Assembly (NCBI GenBank): GCA_030628225.1
Contig: DAOVRJ010000132.1
Coordinates: 1 to 6,904 of the forward strand
Source of the DNA: Candidatus Zixiibacteriota bacterium
GTDB lineage: Bacteria; SM23-81
Direction of reading: 5' to 3'
Length of the DNA stretch: 6,904 nt
The stretch's first letter is position 1. The number at the start of each line of letters is the position of its first letter. The translations under genes were made by a program, and so were the position numbers. Under the pieces are notes generated by a model. It made no database searches. It was not told the origin of the DNA and saw only the letters and a list, made by a program, of their open reading frames with translations. This document shows positions 2 to 6,767 of the stretch, piece after piece.

Positions 2-1444
2 ACACAGTATGACGCCTCCACCCACCGGTGGTTCCTCCAGGCCCAGGTGCCCGCGGAGACGCCCATGGGGCTGTATGATCTGGTAGTCACCGCCTGGGGA
101 GACATCCGGGATACCACAGTCCAGTCGGTGAAGGTCATCGAGCGGGCCAAGGACGATTTCTACTTCATCCACCTCACCGATACGCATATCCCCGAGCGGG
201 GAAGCAGCACCCTTCACTTTCTGGATGAGATCATCCCGGAGATAAACATCATCAACCCTGAATTCGTGCTCATCTCCGGTGATTACGTGAACCGCAGCTA
301 TAAGGACCAGATGGAGATCGGACAGCTCTATTTAAAGAAATTTCAGGTGCCTGTCTTTCTGACTTCCGGCAATCACGATATAGGCGACGGCATGGAACCC
401 TGGTGGGAGTTCTTCGGCTGGCCCTACCTGAACTACTACGACCAAGTTCACTGGAACGGCGGCCCCCTGACCCAGGACTACAGTTTCGATTACGGCAACC
501 TGCATGTGGTGGCCCCCATGACCTGGGTCAATTACAACGACTTTCAGTCCTCGATCTACGGGGACCACAGCATGATCCAGTCCCAGTTGAACTGGCTGCA
601 TCAGGACCTCTCCGCGGTGGAGGGAGATCCCTATCTGGTCATGTTCTACCATTACGACTTCGGCTGGTACGACGACGCACCCCAGATGCCCGAATTCTTC
701 AACCAGTATGGGGTGAATCTGGCACTGTGGGGACACACCCACCAGGCGGCCGAGTATCAGGAGGGGCCCACGCTATCCCTGAACACCGACGACGCCATGA
801 GCTCATCCGGGGGGTTCCGGCTGCTGAAGTTCGAGGACGGCCAGCTTATCGCCCACCCACACCTGTGGAATGCCGATGACATCACTCTGGATTTTTCATC
901 CCCCAATGACGGCACCAGCCCCATCAACACCGCCACCATCCTCAACACCCACAACCAGGTCTTCGAGAACGCCTTTGTCCGGTTTCAGGTACCATCTCCT
1001 GGAGAATATCAGGTGGGTGGCGGCGAGGTCCTTCAGGTCATCGACACCGGGGGTAGCCTCATCTACGAGGTGGAAACGGAGGTGCCCGCCAACGGTCAGA
1101 TGGAGGTAACCATCGCTCTTCAAGTGGGGGCTGAAGAGGAACCACAGGCAGCGCCACCGGGCAAGTTCGTCCTCCATCAGAACAGCCCCAACCCCTTCAA
1201 CGATAGCACGAACATCTCCTTCGCCCTGCCGGGAACTGGATATTGGCGCGTCTCCCTGAAAATCTACAATGTCTGCGGTCAGAAGGTGTTCACTCTGTTA
1301 GACCAACACCTGCCTTCCGGCCGACACACTGTCCGCTGGGACGGTCGCGACGGCTACGGATATTCTCTGGCCTCCGGCCTGTATTTCTGCCGCCTGCGCA
1401 CCGGCGAACGCACGAAGACGGTGAAAATGATGTTGCTGAGGTAA
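2..1444 (+). CDS. Secreted calcineurin-like metallophosphoesterase with C-terminal sorting domain (5' partial)
   Basis: The frame is open from base 2, so the true start lies upstream; 480 residues are visible (numbered from base 2). After an N-terminal beta-rich stretch (about residues 1-50, probably the end of an Ig-like domain) comes a metallophosphoesterase domain with the full dinuclear-metal motif set: DTH (D60, H62), GD (D94), GNHD (N124-D126), a lone His217 and GHTH (H245, H247). The fold hydrolyses phosphomonoesters or diesters; the substrate cannot be read from the sequence. A beta-rich segment follows (about 275-375). From about residue 389 there is an FlgD-like/Por-secretion type C-terminal domain with the hallmark NSPNPFN (394-400), a GLYF strand and a basic ending KMMLLR. 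Such tails direct export through type IX-like secretion in FCB lineages, so the protein is inferred to be extracellular or surface-attached. GC content looks higher than in the operon downstream. No terminator hairpin is visible after the stop, so read-through into the next gene is possible. Confidence 0.9.
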   Translation, partial: TQYDASTHRWFLQAQVPAETPMGLYDLVVTAWGDIRDTTVQSVKVIERAKDDFYFIHLTDTHIPERGSSTLHFLDEIIPEINIINPEFVLISGDYVNRSYKDQMEIGQLYLKKFQVPVFLTSGNHDIGDGMEPWWEFFGWPYLNYYDQVHWNGGPLTQDYSFDYGNLHVVAPMTWVNYNDFQSSIYGDHSMIQSQLNWLHQDLSAVEGDPYLVMFYHYDFGWYDDAPQMPEFFNQYGVNLALWGHTHQAAEYQEGPTLSLNTDDAMSSSGGFRLLKFEDGQLIAHPHLWNADDITLDFSSPNDGTSPINTATILNTHNQVFENAFVRFQVPSPGEYQVGGGEVLQVIDTGGSLIYEVETEVPANGQMEVTIALQVGAEEEPQAAPPGKFVLHQNSPNPFNDSTNISFALPGTGYWRVSLKIYNVCGQKVFTLLDQHLPSGRHTVRWDGRDGYGYSLASGLYFCRLRTGERTKTVKMMLLR

Positions 1445-1527: not shown

Positions 1528-3477
1528 ATGAACACGATCTACGATCACAAACAAGTTTTAGCAGAGGAAATGATCTCCATGAATCTTGACGAGAGCAAAA
1601 ACCTCGAAGATGCCAGGTCTAAATATCCGGACAAGTTTCAGTCGGAGAGGAGAATATTTGACCATCTCCATCGAGGGGACCGAATATTTATCCACACCGC
1701 TTGCGGAGAACCACAATATCTGGTGAATGCCCTGATCAATTTCGTCTCCTCTCATCCTACGGCCTTTTACGACGCCGAGGTGCTTCATGTCTGGACCCTC
1801 GGCGTGGCACCCTACATGGATGAAAAATTCAAGTACAATTTCCGACTCAACTCCTTCTTCGTGGGCAGCAGCACCAGAGCCGCGGTCAACGAAGGAGTTG
1901 CTGACTACACACCGATATTTCTATCTGAGGTTCCCGAACTGTTCCTGCGCGGAGTTGTGCCCATTGACGTCGCCCTGGTGCAGTTGTCGCCGCCGGATCA
2001 GCACGGCTATATGAGCCTGGGGGTGAGCGTCGATATCGTCAAGGCGGCTACGGAAAAAGCTTCCCTGGTCATCGCTCAGGTAAATTCTAATATGCCCCGG
2101 GTGCATGGGGATGGGTTCCTGCACATCGAAGAGGTGGATTTTATCATCCCCCATGATGAGCCGATACTGGAATATAAGGAAGAGCCGGAGGGCGATATCG
2201 CTCAGCGGATTGGAAAGTACGTGGCCCGCCTGATCCAGGATGGGGACACCATTCAGGTGGGATACGGAAGCATACCAAATGCCATCCTGGCCAATCTGGG
2301 AGACAAAAAGCATCTCGGGGTCCACACGGAGCTGATCAGCGATGGCATCGTGGACTTGATGAAAAAAGGGGTCATCGACAACACGCGTAAAAGCATCAAC
2401 CGCGGAAAGTCAGTGGTTACTTTCTGCATGGGCAAAAAGGAGACCTATGAGTTCATCCACGATAACCCGGCCATAGAATTCAGAACCATTAATTACACAA
2501 ACAATCCATTGGTTATCTCCCAGCACGACCACATGACAGCGATAAACTCCGCCCTGGAAATAGACCTCACCGGACAGGCAACGGCAGAATCTCTGGGGAA
2601 AACCTTCTACAGCGGAATAGGAGGGCAGGCAGATTTCATGAGGGGCGCCGTTCTATCCAAAAGCGGCAAAACAATCCTGGCGCTGCCATCCACCGCCGAC
2701 AACGAGCAAACCTCCAGAATCGTTCCCTTCCTCAAAGAGGGCGCCGGGGTTACTCTCATCAGAGGAGATATCCACTATGTGGTTACCGAGTATGGAATTG
2801 CATATTTACATGGCAAAAACATCAGAGAGCGAGCTATGGAATTGATCTCCATCGCACATCCCAAATTCAGGCCCGGACTGATAGATGAAGCCAAGAAGCT
2901 GTATCTGATATTCAAAGACCAGGCATTCATACCAGGAAAACGAGGTGAATATCCGGAAGAGCTGGAAACGTATCGTACCACAAAAACCGGGCTGGAGATT
3001 TTCCTGAGACCCGTGAAAATAAGCGACGAGCCGTTGTTGAAGGATCTTTTCTACTCCCTCTCGGACAAGAGCATGTACCGCAGATTTATCTCGCAGCGAA
3101 AGGACATGCCTCACGAGCGTCTACAGGAATTCGTGATCATCGACCACCTGAGGGAAGTGTTAATGCTCGCCGTGATAGAAAAAGAAGAAGTCGAAGAAAT
3201 CGCTGGAGTGGGGCAGTATGGCATCGACGAGGCCAGCCATACCGCGGAGATCGCCTTTGTGGTCCGGGATATTTATCAGAACATGGGAATCGGCGCTGAA
3301 TTACTATCTTATCTGACCACTCTGGCGAAGAAGCAGGGGCTTTGGGGCTTCACCGCGGAGGTGCTCTGGGAAAACAGACCGATGTTGCAGTTATTTGAAA
3401 AGGCTGGATTTGACATCGAAAAGAGAAGCAGTCAAGGGGTATATGAGTTGAAGATGGCCTTCCGGGAGACGCGATGA
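1528..3477 (+). CDS. Acetyl-CoA hydrolase/CoA-transferase fused to C-terminal GNAT acetyltransferase
   Basis: The 649-residue protein has two parts. Residues about 35-470 are a Cat1/4-hydroxybutyrate CoA-transferase type domain: GDRIF followed by ACGEPQYLV near the N-terminus, SPPDQHGYMSLG, GYGSIPNAIL, LGVHTELISDG with the expected catalytic glutamate E268 (forms the glutamyl-CoA thioester in this family), and GIGGQADF (363-370) near the CoA site. It should move CoA between an acyl-CoA and a free acid such as acetate, or hydrolyse acetyl-CoA. Residues about 492-649 are a GNAT domain resembling that of Pat protein acetyltransferases, with the acetyl-CoA loop QNMGIG (584-589) and E574 as candidate general base. 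Plain CoA-transferases of this type are about 430-440 residues, so the tail is a real extra domain. The start is uncertain: ATG 1528 has no clear ribosome site; ATG 1579 has GAGGA ten bases upstream and would be closer to the length of relatives. The frame stays open back to 1243, but that stretch overlaps the previous gene and is arginine-rich shadow. The stop overlaps the next start. Confidence 0.9.
   Translation: MNTIYDHKQVLAEEMISMNLDESKNLEDARSKYPDKFQSERRIFDHLHRGDRIFIHTACGEPQYLVNALINFVSSHPTAFYDAEVLHVWTLGVAPYMDEKFKYNFRLNSFFVGSSTRAAVNEGVADYTPIFLSEVPELFLRGVVPIDVALVQLSPPDQHGYMSLGVSVDIVKAATEKASLVIAQVNSNMPRVHGDGFLHIEEVDFIIPHDEPILEYKEEPEGDIAQRIGKYVARLIQDGDTIQVGYGSIPNAILANLGDKKHLGVHTELISDGIVDLMKKGVIDNTRKSINRGKSVVTFCMGKKETYEFIHDNPAIEFRTINYTNNPLVISQHDHMTAINSALEIDLTGQATAESLGKTFYSGIGGQADFMRGAVLSKSGKTILALPSTADNEQTSRIVPFLKEGAGVTLIRGDIHYVVTEYGIAYLHGKNIRERAMELISIAHPKFRPGLIDEAKKLYLIFKDQAFIPGKRGEYPEELETYRTTKTGLEIFLRPVKISDEPLLKDLFYSLSDKSMYRRFISQRKDMPHERLQEFVIIDHLREVLMLAVIEKEEVEEIAGVGQYGIDEASHTAEIAFVVRDIYQNMGIGAELLSYLTTLAKKQGLWGFTAEVLWENRPMLQLFEKAGFDIEKRSSQGVYELKMAFRETR
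3464..3468 (+). promoter_or_regulatory. Ribosome binding site of the acyl-CoA synthetase gene
   Basis: GGGAG lies five bases before ATG 3474, inside the last codons of the upstream gene. It supports this start and, with the ATGA overlap at 3474-3477, translational coupling. Confidence 0.6.
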
Positions 3478-5597
3478 GAAAAGGAACGCCAAATATTAAA
3501 TTCCTGTTCGAGCCTCGCTCTGTGGCCATCATAGGCGCTTCGCAGCATCAGAACAAGATCGGGTACAAAATCGTCGAGAACATCCGGTTCAGCAAGTACC
3601 CCGGCAAGATATACCCGGTAAATCCCAAGGGCGGTGAAATACTCGGTCTTCCCGTGTACCGGTCGCTGGACGAGATCCGTGGCCACATCGATATGGCCGT
3701 ACTGGCCATACCGGCAAAAATCGCTTATCAAGCGGTGAAGGACTGCGCCAGGTGTGGCGTGAAATTTCTGGTGCTGATCACGTCGGGCTTCTCAGAAGTG
3801 GGCAACACCGAGGGGGAAAGAAAGATCGTCGCCTATGCCCATGAGCACCAGATGCGCATTCTAGGACCGAATATCTTTGGAATCTACTCATCCATGGCGC
3901 CGCTAAACGCAACTTTCGGCATGAAAGAGATCATGCCCGGCAGCGTGGCCATCATCACTCAGAGCGGGGCCCTGGGACTGGCCATGATCGGCAAAACCGC
4001 GGTGGAGAACATCGGCCTGTCGGCCATCGTTTCAGTGGGGAATAAATCGGACATCAATGAGGCCGATCTTTTGGGATATCTGGCGTCCCACAAAAACACC
4101 AAAGTCATTTTGATGTACATAGAGGGGGTGAAAGACGGGGACAAGCTGGTGGATGTGCTCAAGGAGACCACCCCCAAAAAACCGGTTGTGGTCATCAAAT
4201 CCGGAAGATCCAAAGTTGGCGCCATGGCAGCCGCATCACATACCGGCTCCCTGGCCGGGGCGGACGAGATCTTTTCAGACATCATGACTCAGTGCGGAGT
4301 CCTCAGAGCAGAGAGTATTCAGGAGGCTTTTGCCTGGTGCAAATTCCTGGCCAGCGCGCCGACGCCAAAGGGTGAGAACACCGTGATCATCACAAACGGG
4401 GGCGGCCTGGGCGTGCTGGCTGCAGATGCCTGTGAAAAATATGATGTCCAGCTTTATAATGACATCGAAAATATGAAAAAAACGTTCTCCGGGGTGGTTC
4501 CAGAATTCGGCTCCCTGAAAAATCCGGTGGACATCACCGGTCAGGCGACGATGACAGATTATGAGCAAGCTCTCAACATCTCGTTGAAAAATAGGGATAT
4601 CCACTCTATCATCTGCTTAGGCTGTGAAACGGCGGTTTTTGCCGGCAAAGAGATTTCCATGATGGTCAAGAAGATCTTCTCCGCGGGAAAGTCAAAAAAA
4701 CCCCTGGTGTTCTCCTTCGTCGGAGGAGTTCAAACAGAAGAAGCCATCGATCATTTAAAAACGAGTGGCATCCCCATATTCTCTGATGTCTACGAAGCTG
4801 TATCATGTTTTGGGACTATGTATGTGAATTACCACAACACAAAGAATAGCCCAGCCGCTGAGATCGAGGAGAGAGAAATTGACATCCGCGCAGTTGAGAG
4901 CATCATAAAAAAAGCAAGAGACGAAAAAAGACAGAGCCTTCTCTCTTGGGAGGCCCGGGGGATCATAGAAGCAATCGGCATTCACGGGCCGGAAAGTCAT
5001 CTGGCCCGCAATCTCGATGAGGCCATCGCGTATGCGGAGAAACTCGACTATCCTGTGGTCATGAAAGTCGTGTCCAGGGATATCCTTCATAAAAGCGACG
5101 TAGGCGGTGTCGCTCTGGACCTGTTGAACCGGGATGAAGTCATCGACGCATACGGGGCCATCATGCACAGCTGCAGAGAGCACGTGCCTGAGGCCATCAT
5201 CGAGGGTGTCGAGATCTCCCAGCAGGTTGAACCCGGCTTGGAAACCATCATCGGGGCCAGAAGGGATAGATCTTTCGGTCCCATCGTTATGTTTGGTCTC
5301 GGCGGCATCTATGTGGAAGTCATGAAAGATGTTTCGTTTCGTGCCCTTCCTCTAAACAGAGAGGAAGCAGGAGCCATGATCAAGGAAATCAAATCATACC
5401 CGCTGTTGTTGGGAGTACGGGGAGAAAAGCGGAAGGATATCGATAGCGTAATCGATACCATCATGAATTTAAGCGCACTTATACAAAAATGCAAGAGCAT
5501 CTCAGACATCGAGATCAATCCCCTGGTGGTCTATGAACAGGGCGATGGAGCACAGGCTGTAGATGCTAGAATTCTTATTTCAAGCGCAGAGAGGTGA
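3474..5597 (+). CDS. NDP-forming acyl-CoA synthetase (acetate--CoA ligase, ADP-forming type), fused alpha-beta chain
   Basis: This 707-residue protein has the order CoA-binding domain (about 8-135, with SVAIIGAS at 16-23), succinyl-CoA-ligase-like domains (about 140-450) and, after a charged linker (about 455-485), an ATP-grasp beta part (about 485-707). The reversible reaction is acyl-CoA + ADP + Pi to acid + CoA + ATP, in the cytoplasm. Residues known to matter in archaeal ADP-forming acetyl-CoA synthetase are in place: H256 in SHTGSLAG is the phosphorylated histidine (His257-alpha in Pyrococcus), E217 matches Glu218-alpha, and H539 in HKSDVGGV matches His71-beta. ITQSGALG (about 161-168) and DIEINPL (678-684, Mg/nucleotide side) are also present. 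Since the catalytic residues are kept, it should be an active enzyme rather than a Pat-type regulator with a dead synthetase part; Pat proteins also carry a GNAT, absent here. Acetyl-CoA is the likeliest substrate, but propionyl-, branched or aryl-CoA cannot be excluded. It is coupled to the upstream gene by the ATGA overlap. Confidence 0.92.
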   Translation: MRKGTPNIKFLFEPRSVAIIGASQHQNKIGYKIVENIRFSKYPGKIYPVNPKGGEILGLPVYRSLDEIRGHIDMAVLAIPAKIAYQAVKDCARCGVKFLVLITSGFSEVGNTEGERKIVAYAHEHQMRILGPNIFGIYSSMAPLNATFGMKEIMPGSVAIITQSGALGLAMIGKTAVENIGLSAIVSVGNKSDINEADLLGYLASHKNTKVILMYIEGVKDGDKLVDVLKETTPKKPVVVIKSGRSKVGAMAAASHTGSLAGADEIFSDIMTQCGVLRAESIQEAFAWCKFLASAPTPKGENTVIITNGGGLGVLAADACEKYDVQLYNDIENMKKTFSGVVPEFGSLKNPVDITGQATMTDYEQALNISLKNRDIHSIICLGCETAVFAGKEISMMVKKIFSAGKSKKPLVFSFVGGVQTEEAIDHLKTSGIPIFSDVYEAVSCFGTMYVNYHNTKNSPAAEIEEREIDIRAVESIIKKARDEKRQSLLSWEARGIIEAIGIHGPESHLARNLDEAIAYAEKLDYPVVMKVVSRDILHKSDVGGVALDLLNRDEVIDAYGAIMHSCREHVPEAIIEGVEISQQVEPGLETIIGARRDRSFGPIVMFGLGGIYVEVMKDVSFRALPLNREEAGAMIKEIKSYPLLLGVRGEKRKDIDSVIDTIMNLSALIQKCKSISDIEINPLVVYEQGDGAQAVDARILISSAER
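5591..5597 (+). promoter_or_regulatory. Ribosome binding site of the DRTGG protein gene
   Basis: GAGGTGA, a strong Shine-Dalgarno match, contains the TGA stop of the upstream gene and ends five bases before ATG 5603. It fixes this start and indicates co-translation. Confidence 0.75.
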
Positions 5598-5602
5598 GAT
5601 AA

Positions 5603-6637
5603 ATGGATACGATGATTATCGCATCAACGCGCAAAAGCGCAGGAAAAACAAGCATAATTATGGGCATCGCTCGGGCAACGCAGAAGAAGATCGGATACAT
5701 GAAACCCTTCGGGGACAGACTGATCTACCATAAAAAGCGGCTGTGGGATTACGACTCCGCCCTGATCGCAAATGTCTTCGGCCTGAAAGAAAACCCTGAG
5801 GATATGAGCATTGGTCAGGAGCATTCCAAACTCAGTTACATGAGCGCGGAGGAGATCGAGGAGAAGCTACTGCGAAGTATCTCGAAGATGTCCCAAGATA
5901 AGGAAATTCTGTTCGTTGAAGGTGGGAAAGACCTCACATATGGCGCCTCCGTCCACCTCGACGTCATATCTGTGGCCAAGCGTCTCGATTATCCCCTCGT
6001 GTTTGTCATCGGCTCCGACAACGACTCCATCGATGAGATCACCTTCGTCAAAAAGTACATCGACATGACCGGTGTGAACGTAAAGGGCGTTATCGTTAAC
6101 AAAACTCACGACCCGGAGGATTTCCAAAACACTCATCTGAAAACCATCACCGATATGGGCTTAAAAATTCTGGGCATCATCCCCTCCCGACCAGAGCTAA
6201 CCTGCCTCTCGGTGGAATATCTGTCCAATCGCCTGTTCGCCAAGGTTATTGCCGGCGAGGACGGTCTGAGCAATGTGGTCAACAACATCTTTGTTGGTGC
6301 CATGTCCGCCGACGCCGCTCAGCGCAGCCCTAAATTTCACAAGGAGAAAAAGCTGATCATCACCGCCGGCGACCGGGTTGATATGATCCTGACTGCCCTG
6401 GACAGTGATACCACATGCATCATCCTCACCAATAACATCCTGCCACCGGCAAATATCATCTCCAAAGCCACCGATCACAGCATTCCTTTGCTTCTTGTCT
6501 CGACGGACACATATCAAGTGGCTCAGCAGGTTGACAGCATGGAACCCCTGCTGACGAAAAACGACACCGAAAAGATCGAACTGCTGGGACAATTAATCGC
6601 CGATCACGTGGATCTGAAAGAGATCGCCGGCGTTTAA
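5603..6637 (+). CDS. BioD-like/DRTGG domain protein (stand-alone N-terminal half of phosphotransacetylase)
   Basis: The 344-residue protein matches the layout of the COG0857-type family: a P-loop NTPase part related to dethiobiotin synthetase (about 1-205), then a DRTGG domain (about 210-325). The P-loop is STRKSAGKTS (8-17), with KPFGDR (34-39) after the next strand, FVEGG (104-108) at the Walker B/acid position, and an IGSDNDS strand-loop. In long phosphotransacetylases of about 700 residues this pair sits before the catalytic PTA_PTB domain and affects regulation; here that catalytic domain is absent, so the protein should not make acetyl phosphate itself. In the DRTGG domain GDR (256-258) is kept, but the usual ILTGG is ILTNN, which may change ligand binding. 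It is last in the operon, six bases after the synthetase stop, ahead of a terminator. A regulatory or ligand-sensing role in acetyl-CoA/acetate exchange is inferred from domain and context only. Confidence 0.85.
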   Translation: MDTMIIASTRKSAGKTSIIMGIARATQKKIGYMKPFGDRLIYHKKRLWDYDSALIANVFGLKENPEDMSIGQEHSKLSYMSAEEIEEKLLRSISKMSQDKEILFVEGGKDLTYGASVHLDVISVAKRLDYPLVFVIGSDNDSIDEITFVKKYIDMTGVNVKGVIVNKTHDPEDFQNTHLKTITDMGLKILGIIPSRPELTCLSVEYLSNRLFAKVIAGEDGLSNVVNNIFVGAMSADAAQRSPKFHKEKKLIITAGDRVDMILTALDSDTTCIILTNNILPPANIISKATDHSIPLLLVSTDTYQVAQQVDSMEPLLTKNDTEKIELLGQLIADHVDLKEIAGV

Positions 6638-6708: not shown

Positions 6709-6740
6709 AAAAAAGGCGACCATCGAGGCCGCCCTTTTTT
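6709..6740. terminator. Bidirectional intrinsic terminator between convergent genes
   Basis: Six A (6709-6714) and six T (6735-6740) flank a GC-rich hairpin: GG-CG-CC on the left pairs with GG-CG-CC on the right, with one bulged C and one A-C mismatch, around the loop ATCGA. The T-run ends transcripts of the operon on the plus strand; the A-run gives the same structure with a U-tail for the minus-strand gene, whose stop lies 27 bases away. Confidence 0.8.
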
Positions 6741-6767
6741 CTGAATCAGCCTTGATCTTCACCTTCC

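Follow-up and report, generated by a model that had tools for sequence, protein, structure and literature searches.

A Pat-type acetyltransferase domain fused to a CoA-transferase and encoded with an ADP-forming acyl-CoA synthetase: a candidate lysine acetyltransferase of acyl-CoA metabolism

Protein acetylation controls acetate activation through enzymes such as Pat, MtPat, and AcuA. The stretch of DNA analyzed here (the window, 6,904 bases, an entire contig of a 2.34-Mb, 306-contig metagenome-assembled genome [MAG] on which all statements about the genome rest) encodes a family I CoA-transferase whose chain continues into a GNAT domain of the Pat type. We propose, with a probability of about one half, that this GNAT is a lysine acetyltransferase (KAT) of acyl-CoA synthetases and that the CoA-transferase half, apparently still active in the window, serves as an acyl-CoA gauge. 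We favor this reading because the GNAT is Pat-like, relatives have lost the transferase Glu while retaining the GNAT acid, AMP-forming synthetases (Acs) neighbor the fusion in L138, L215, and L225, and synthetases in general tend to adjoin it. Against it count the lack of a PX4GK motif in the coupled synthetase, an excess of adjacency over unfused enzymes that is not significant, and nine fused GNATs that have lost the acid.

The fusion gene (gene 1; 1528..3477, + strand; 649 aa as called from 1528) is tightly packed on the + strand with two others. Gene 2 (3474..5597, +; 707 aa) encodes an ADP-forming acyl-CoA synthetase (ACD) with alpha and beta parts in a single chain and no GNAT, and gene 3 (5603..6637, +; 344 aa) encodes a protein with AAA_26 (residues 3-200) and DRTGG (residues 209-312) domains. 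An ATGA start/stop overlap at 3474..3477 (+) implies translational coupling of genes 1 and 2. The real start of gene 1 is probably the ATG at 1570 or 1579 rather than 1528, since homologues in an alignment of close fusions start at residues 16-26 of the called protein; residue numbers are nevertheless counted from 1528. Upstream, at 2-1444 (+), lies a calcineurin-like metallophosphoesterase unrelated to the cassette, and its FlgD-Ig/Por-type C-terminal sorting domain suggests a host with type IX-like secretion. Downstream of gene 3, an imperfect hairpin rich in GC, with a run of six T behind it (6709-6742), was noticed by eye; it is a plausible cassette terminator, although a terminator scan did not call it.

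The CoA-transferase domain (residues 30-455; 1615..2892, +) matches both Pfam halves of its family, AcetylCoA_hydro (E 4e-52) and AcetylCoA_hyd_C (E 3e-64), and its nearest solved structures are the 4-hydroxybutyrate CoA-transferases 9vag, 3eh7, and 3gk7. E268 (codon 2329..2331, +) aligns with E238 of 3gk7, which we take to be the catalytic Glu of that enzyme, and is invariant in all 32 close fusions. The two Pfam halves and this Glu place gene 1 in family I, in the 4-hydroxybutyrate/butyrate:acetate class. Relative to the 4-hydroxybutyrate and butyryl-CoA:acetate CoA-transferases (3gk7, 3eh7, 9vag), it is alike in the full domain and in E268, but it carries the extra C-terminal GNAT and, at 294 bits against a cut-off of 674.8, scores below the butyryl-CoA:acetate CoA-transferase equivalog of NCBIfam (TIGR03948). 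Identity to unfused relatives is 41-49%. A full-length AlphaFold model of gene 1 had a mean pLDDT of 66.8, with the CoA-transferase core and the linker poorly modeled.

The remainder of the chain is recognized by Pfam as Acetyltransf_1 (E 9e-10) and, at residues 491-628, Acetyltransf_3. The GNAT domain proper occupies residues 491-640 (2998..3447, +), and homology to Pat begins ahead of this core, at a YP..LE segment starting at residue 474. Both functional marks of a Pat-type GNAT are present. The first is the catalytic acid, E574 in HTAEIAF (codon 3247..3249, +), whose aligned counterpart in MtPat and SlPatA is the Glu of AEIAF/AEVAF; the second is a Q/R-x-x-G-x-G/A acetyl-CoA P-loop, Q584-N-M-G-I-G589 (3277..3294, +). 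Among the 32 close fusions, the acid is E in 29 and D in three, and G587 is invariant. The initial annotation had already read one chain with a CoA-transferase bearing E268 and a C-terminal GNAT with the QNMGIG loop, followed by a coupled and complete ACD without a GNAT; the Pfam domains, alignments, ATGA overlap, and both ACD histidines agree with it.

Sequence and fold point to the same relatives. The best PDB sequence matches of the GNAT are E. coli PatZ, SlPatA, and MtPat, and its best matches in a plasmid collection are mostly proteins named "bifunctional acetate-CoA ligase/GNAT" or "pat". A profile built from the fused GNATs gave Pat GNATs 60-128 bits, compared with 24 for RimI and 10 for SpeG. 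The nine best PDB folds for the predicted GNAT model (pLDDT 79) all belong to PatZ (TM 0.87), SlPatA, MtPat, or MsPat, with other solved GNATs ranking below them; the SlPatA entries include both the enzyme on its own and its complex with the Acs C-terminal domain (4u5y). By profile, tree, and predicted fold, then, the GNAT is of the Pat type, as had been supposed when a tree was named as the check.

In the GNAT tree, all CoA-transferase-fused GNATs and the standalone L102 form a single clade (99/96), with synthetase-GNAT, GNAT-synthetase, cAMP-GNAT, and standalone Pat-type proteins as neighbors whose order relative to one another the tree does not resolve. In the CoA-transferase tree, the fused forms likewise group together (92/92), and each of the 16 unfused enzymes falls outside that group. 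The simplest reading of these two groupings is a single ancient fusion event. The idea that a Pat module was "re-partnered" with the CoA-transferase thus stands as to the kind of GNAT; its direction does not follow, since the fused GNATs occupy their own clade rather than nesting within any synthetase-fused Pat clade, and derivation from Pat is one possible direction. The standalone L102 protein (L102:5772-6659, -; 295 aa), which is 52% identical to the fused GNAT and has V at the acid position, apparently split off from a fusion.

The most informative variation lies in the relatives. Across 104 aligned fusions, which come mostly from one phylum and are not independent rows, 44 no longer have the catalytic Glu of the transferase (Q in 21, D in 10, P in eight, and other residues in five; L091-L096, L175-L234), so that a non-acid stands in its place in 34, while the surrounding LG[VI]H[TS] motif is largely retained. 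The acid of the GNAT (E or D) persists in 95 of the 104. The tree calls for at least seven changes of the Glu and for four of the GNAT acid. Unfused CoA-transferases kept the Glu in 16 of 16 cases (Fisher p 0.0005 versus the fusions, with relatedness ignored). In L215 and L225, for example, Gln replaces the transferase Glu, the GNAT is intact, and an adjoining Acs carries PKTRSGK, the motif of Pat's known target. Nine fused GNATs lack the acid, and six of these (L187, L188, L191, L193, L194, and L197) have also lost the transferase residue, with Glu changed to Q and the GNAT acid to M; five of the six adjoin or lie near an AMP-binding enzyme, which carries PRNPTGK in L188 and L194.

This pattern suggests that the Glu-lost transferase halves became sensors, and we regard them as candidate pseudo-transferase sensors. 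The synthetase-like half of Pat offers the precedent: inactive and lacking the catalytic His, it binds acetyl-CoA and exerts control over the GNAT (PMC8556138; also PMC6456759, PMC11254643). The CoA-transferase fusions, in which the transferase Glu has repeatedly disappeared and the GNAT acid has mostly stayed, therefore look like a second, parallel route to the design seen in Pat.

Alternatively, regulation could run in cis, with the GNAT acetylating its own CoA-transferase half or serving as an oligomerization and acetyl-CoA-sensing module, such that high acetyl-CoA throttles the transferase and the synthetase is only a metabolic partner. Both halves do sit in one chain, the fused forms group together in both trees, both active sites are intact in the window's subfamily, and autoacetylation is known for PatZ (PMC6456759). 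Yet the fusions with a non-acid for Glu and a mostly conserved GNAT acid would have nothing to regulate in cis, and we consider this explanation unlikely.

The fusion is widespread. Scanning GTDB genomes turned up 41 loci. In most of them the full fusion is present, at 63-76% identity, and the set spans Theionarchaea, Desulfobacterota, Eisenbacteria, Neomarinimicrobiota, Dehalococcoidia, Nitrospirota, Dethiobacter, and others; the phylum of the window MAG itself was represented by four genomes only in the set searched. Of 198 genomes sampled from the deltaproteobacterial phylum to which L020 belongs, at least 84 carry a full-length fusion, with identity down to 34%. The plasmid collection yielded zero fusions covering 80% of the query. 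In RefSeq, proteins of this kind presumably go under the name "bifunctional acetyl-CoA hydrolase/transferase family protein/GNAT family N-acetyltransferase".

Several copies merit separate mention. The archaeal L003 and L037 are among those closest to the window (76%), and the contig bearing L037, the Theionarchaea copy, is 242 kb long. MAGs labeled Woesearchaeota, Nanoarchaeota, and Methanothrix/Methanosaeta (L006, L019, L035, L042) contain the fusion or fragments with bacterial-like identity, which may reflect misbinning or transfer. Broken copies include frameshift-split fusions in L109:1525-2861 and L033:6137-7971 and ACD fragments in L023:9917-11095. In the UBP15-type MAGs L028, L030, and L032, a lipid A acyltransferase-like gene directly precedes the fusion.

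The gene order of the window, CoA-transferase-GNAT followed by ACD and then the DRTGG protein, occurs in 19 other loci, archaeal and bacterial. These are L003, L004, L005, L006, L007, L008, L009 (one intervening gene), L013, L016, L026, L037, L038 (cut inside the GNAT), L142, L143, L147, L154, L157 (one intervening gene), L159, and L161; contig ends cut the cassette in L010, L019, L141, and L160. Such recurrence argues against chance. Between loci, the three proteins diverge in step (Mantel r 0.80, 0.84, and 0.91; p 0.0005), which indicates that they are inherited together. The survey of gene order that the initial annotation had called for therefore found it kept across phyla and co-inherited. 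That annotation had also held that the fusion is not new and that its pairing with the synthetase and DRTGG protein is the point of interest. The fusion is indeed widespread, but it is commoner than was implied and is itself the more informative part, given the lost catalytic Glu in relatives and the cassette in which an Acs stands in for the ACD.

That cassette (L138:4566-9598, -) reads CoA-transferase-GNAT, AMP-forming Acs with PKTRSGK, and AAA+DRTGG protein. In L015 and L025, an Acs with PKTRSGK is likewise encoded, some 2 kb downstream, and L017 has the same gene family at that place. A short-chain fatty acid transporter gene immediately precedes the fusion in L005 and L008; in L110, it separates the fusion from the ACD. 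In more distant fusions, the ACD is often directly upstream (L174, L179, L192, L196, L198, L201).

Gene 2 itself has every ACD domain (Pfam CoA_binding, Succ_CoA_lig, Ligase_CoA_2, and ATP-grasp_5) and both active-site histidines, H256 in the alpha-part phosphohistidine motif AASHTG (codon 4239..4241, +) and H539 in the beta-part ILHKSDVGG (codon 5088..5090, +). It shares all domains and both histidines with the ACDs 8wzu and 4xyl, and differs from them in falling under the NCBIfam cut-offs and in being coupled to a CoA-transferase-GNAT gene. From its family, we infer an ADP- rather than AMP-forming activity. Judged by their residues, the E268 transferase, the E574 GNAT, and the ACD all look catalytically intact in the window.

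The initial annotation named this coupled ACD, beside the CoA-transferase itself and other enzymes, as a possible target of the GNAT, closing a feedback loop within the operon. The ATGA coupling, the order in 20 loci including the window, the correlated divergences, and the separate arrangement with the ACD directly upstream of the fusion all count in favor of such a role. At the residue level, however, an alignment yielded zero cassette-specific invariant lysines, each of the six that are invariant being present in other ACDs too, and the coupled ACD does not have the PX4GK motif of AMP-forming targets. Many fusions, moreover, have no neighboring ACD, and L138 has an Acs in its place. Adjacency is the sole support for the coupled ACD as target, beyond which the claim is unsupported; the ACD is not singled out, and we find this explanation quite unlikely.

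Adjacency in general is well above background. In that deltaproteobacterial phylum, an acyl-CoA synthetase is the direct neighbor of 29 of 100 fusions, compared with three of 375 background genes taken from these loci (p 7e-12). The corresponding figure for unfused CoA-transferases is two of 20 loci (p 0.096 against the fusions, not significant), and for this reason part of the adjacency may reflect shared acyl-CoA metabolism. A plain metabolic fusion, in which a cassette for ordinary acetate metabolism carries a GNAT that is either a small-molecule acetyltransferase or a vestigial structural appendage, could draw on the same control, on the metabolic kinship of synthetase and CoA-transferase, on the versatility of GNATs, and on the nine fused GNATs without the acid. 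It is hard to square with Pat-like sequence and fold matches that rank above all small-molecule GNATs, or with a GNAT acid and P-loop conserved across nine or more phyla, and we think it improbable.

Gene 3 corresponds to the N-terminal part of a class II phosphotransacetylase (PTA), with the AAA_26 and DRTGG domains present and the PTA catalytic domain absent; the protein ends at 344 aa and covers model NF004167 to position 367 of 708. The same domains without a PTA domain make up DVU3031 of Desulfovibrio vulgaris and AF_1212 (PDB 2ioj), from which gene 3 differs in coming after an ACD. DVU3031 is located in an acetate-forming operon (PMC4481167) and is required for growth on L-lactate (PMC10102598). 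Gene 3 putatively encodes a regulatory subunit.

The rest of the MAG supplies further components. It encodes a Sir2/CobB-like deacylase, AMP-forming acyl-CoA synthetases with PX4GK (one Acs being cut by a contig end), and a second ACD. The fusion is the only Pat-type GNAT found in its 306 contigs, where no synthetase-GNAT Pat was found. Writer, eraser, and canonical targets are therefore all present. A mutual exclusion of cassette and synthetase-GNAT Pats (Pats in about two of 17 cassette genomes and eight of 14 others) was considered and left unused, as the distribution is phylogenetically clumped and MAG-based. On a Tsukamurella plasmid (L129:1292-5225), the genes for an AcuC-type deacetylase and a GNAT-synthetase Pat overlap, joining writer and eraser in one unit.

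We accordingly picture acetylation of acyl-CoA synthetases by the fused GNAT as follows, with each step conditional. The window would constitute a cassette for acetate/acyl-CoA conversion that brings its own protein acetyltransferase. Its CoA-transferase half would move CoA between acetate and other short-chain acids by family I chemistry via E268, the ACD would interconvert acyl-CoA + ADP + Pi and acid + ATP + CoA, and the AAA+DRTGG protein could act in trans as a regulatory subunit. When acetyl-CoA is high, the GNAT would acetylate acyl-CoA synthetases, namely AMP-forming enzymes of the Acs type encoded at other sites of the genome and perhaps also the ACD coupled to it, with the CoA-transferase half acting as gauge in the manner of the dead synthetase half of Pat; the Sir2-type deacylase of the same genome could reverse the modification. 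More tentatively, CoA-transferase-GNAT fusions may represent an unrecognized and widespread KAT type that uses a Glu-stripped transferase as sensor and controls AMP- and ADP-forming synthetases in anaerobes, the window's form being one in which transferase, synthetase, and acetyltransferase have all kept their activity and share their inheritance with a DRTGG regulator.

The fusion is apparently unstudied despite its breadth. The published KAT types I-V include no CoA-transferase class (PMC6456759, PMC8556138, PMC11254643), and the literature searched, with subscription papers outside its reach, contained no account of a CoA-transferase-GNAT lysine acetyltransferase. If these proteins are KATs, a large share of syntrophic and sulfate-reducing anaerobes carries an unassigned acetylation system. 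The repeated loss of Glu would then provide a natural series from acyl-CoA enzyme to sensor, of which Pat shows the finished form only.

Finally, the cassette can be set beside known systems. It resembles, by analogy only, acuABC of Bacillus subtilis, where an acetyltransferase of Acs is encoded with a nucleotide-responsive regulator and with ATGA coupling (PMC13039410); the protein families are others (AcuB is CBS+ACT), and the window cassette has no deacetylase. With the type III KATs MtPat and MsPat, the fusion shares an N-terminal regulatory domain joined to a Pat-type GNAT and a fold match, but it has no cAMP domain. With Pat/PatZ/YfiQ (type I) and SlPatA (type II), it shares the kind of GNAT and a partner that is likewise an acyl-CoA-binding enzyme. 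The partner of types I and II is an NDP-forming synthetase-like domain in the same chain, whereas here it is a family I CoA-transferase, the synthetase is a separate gene, and the GNATs fall in a separate clade. As in Pat, the catalytic residue of the partner is lost in many relatives; in the window, E268 is retained and the partner does not have the dead active site of types I and II.
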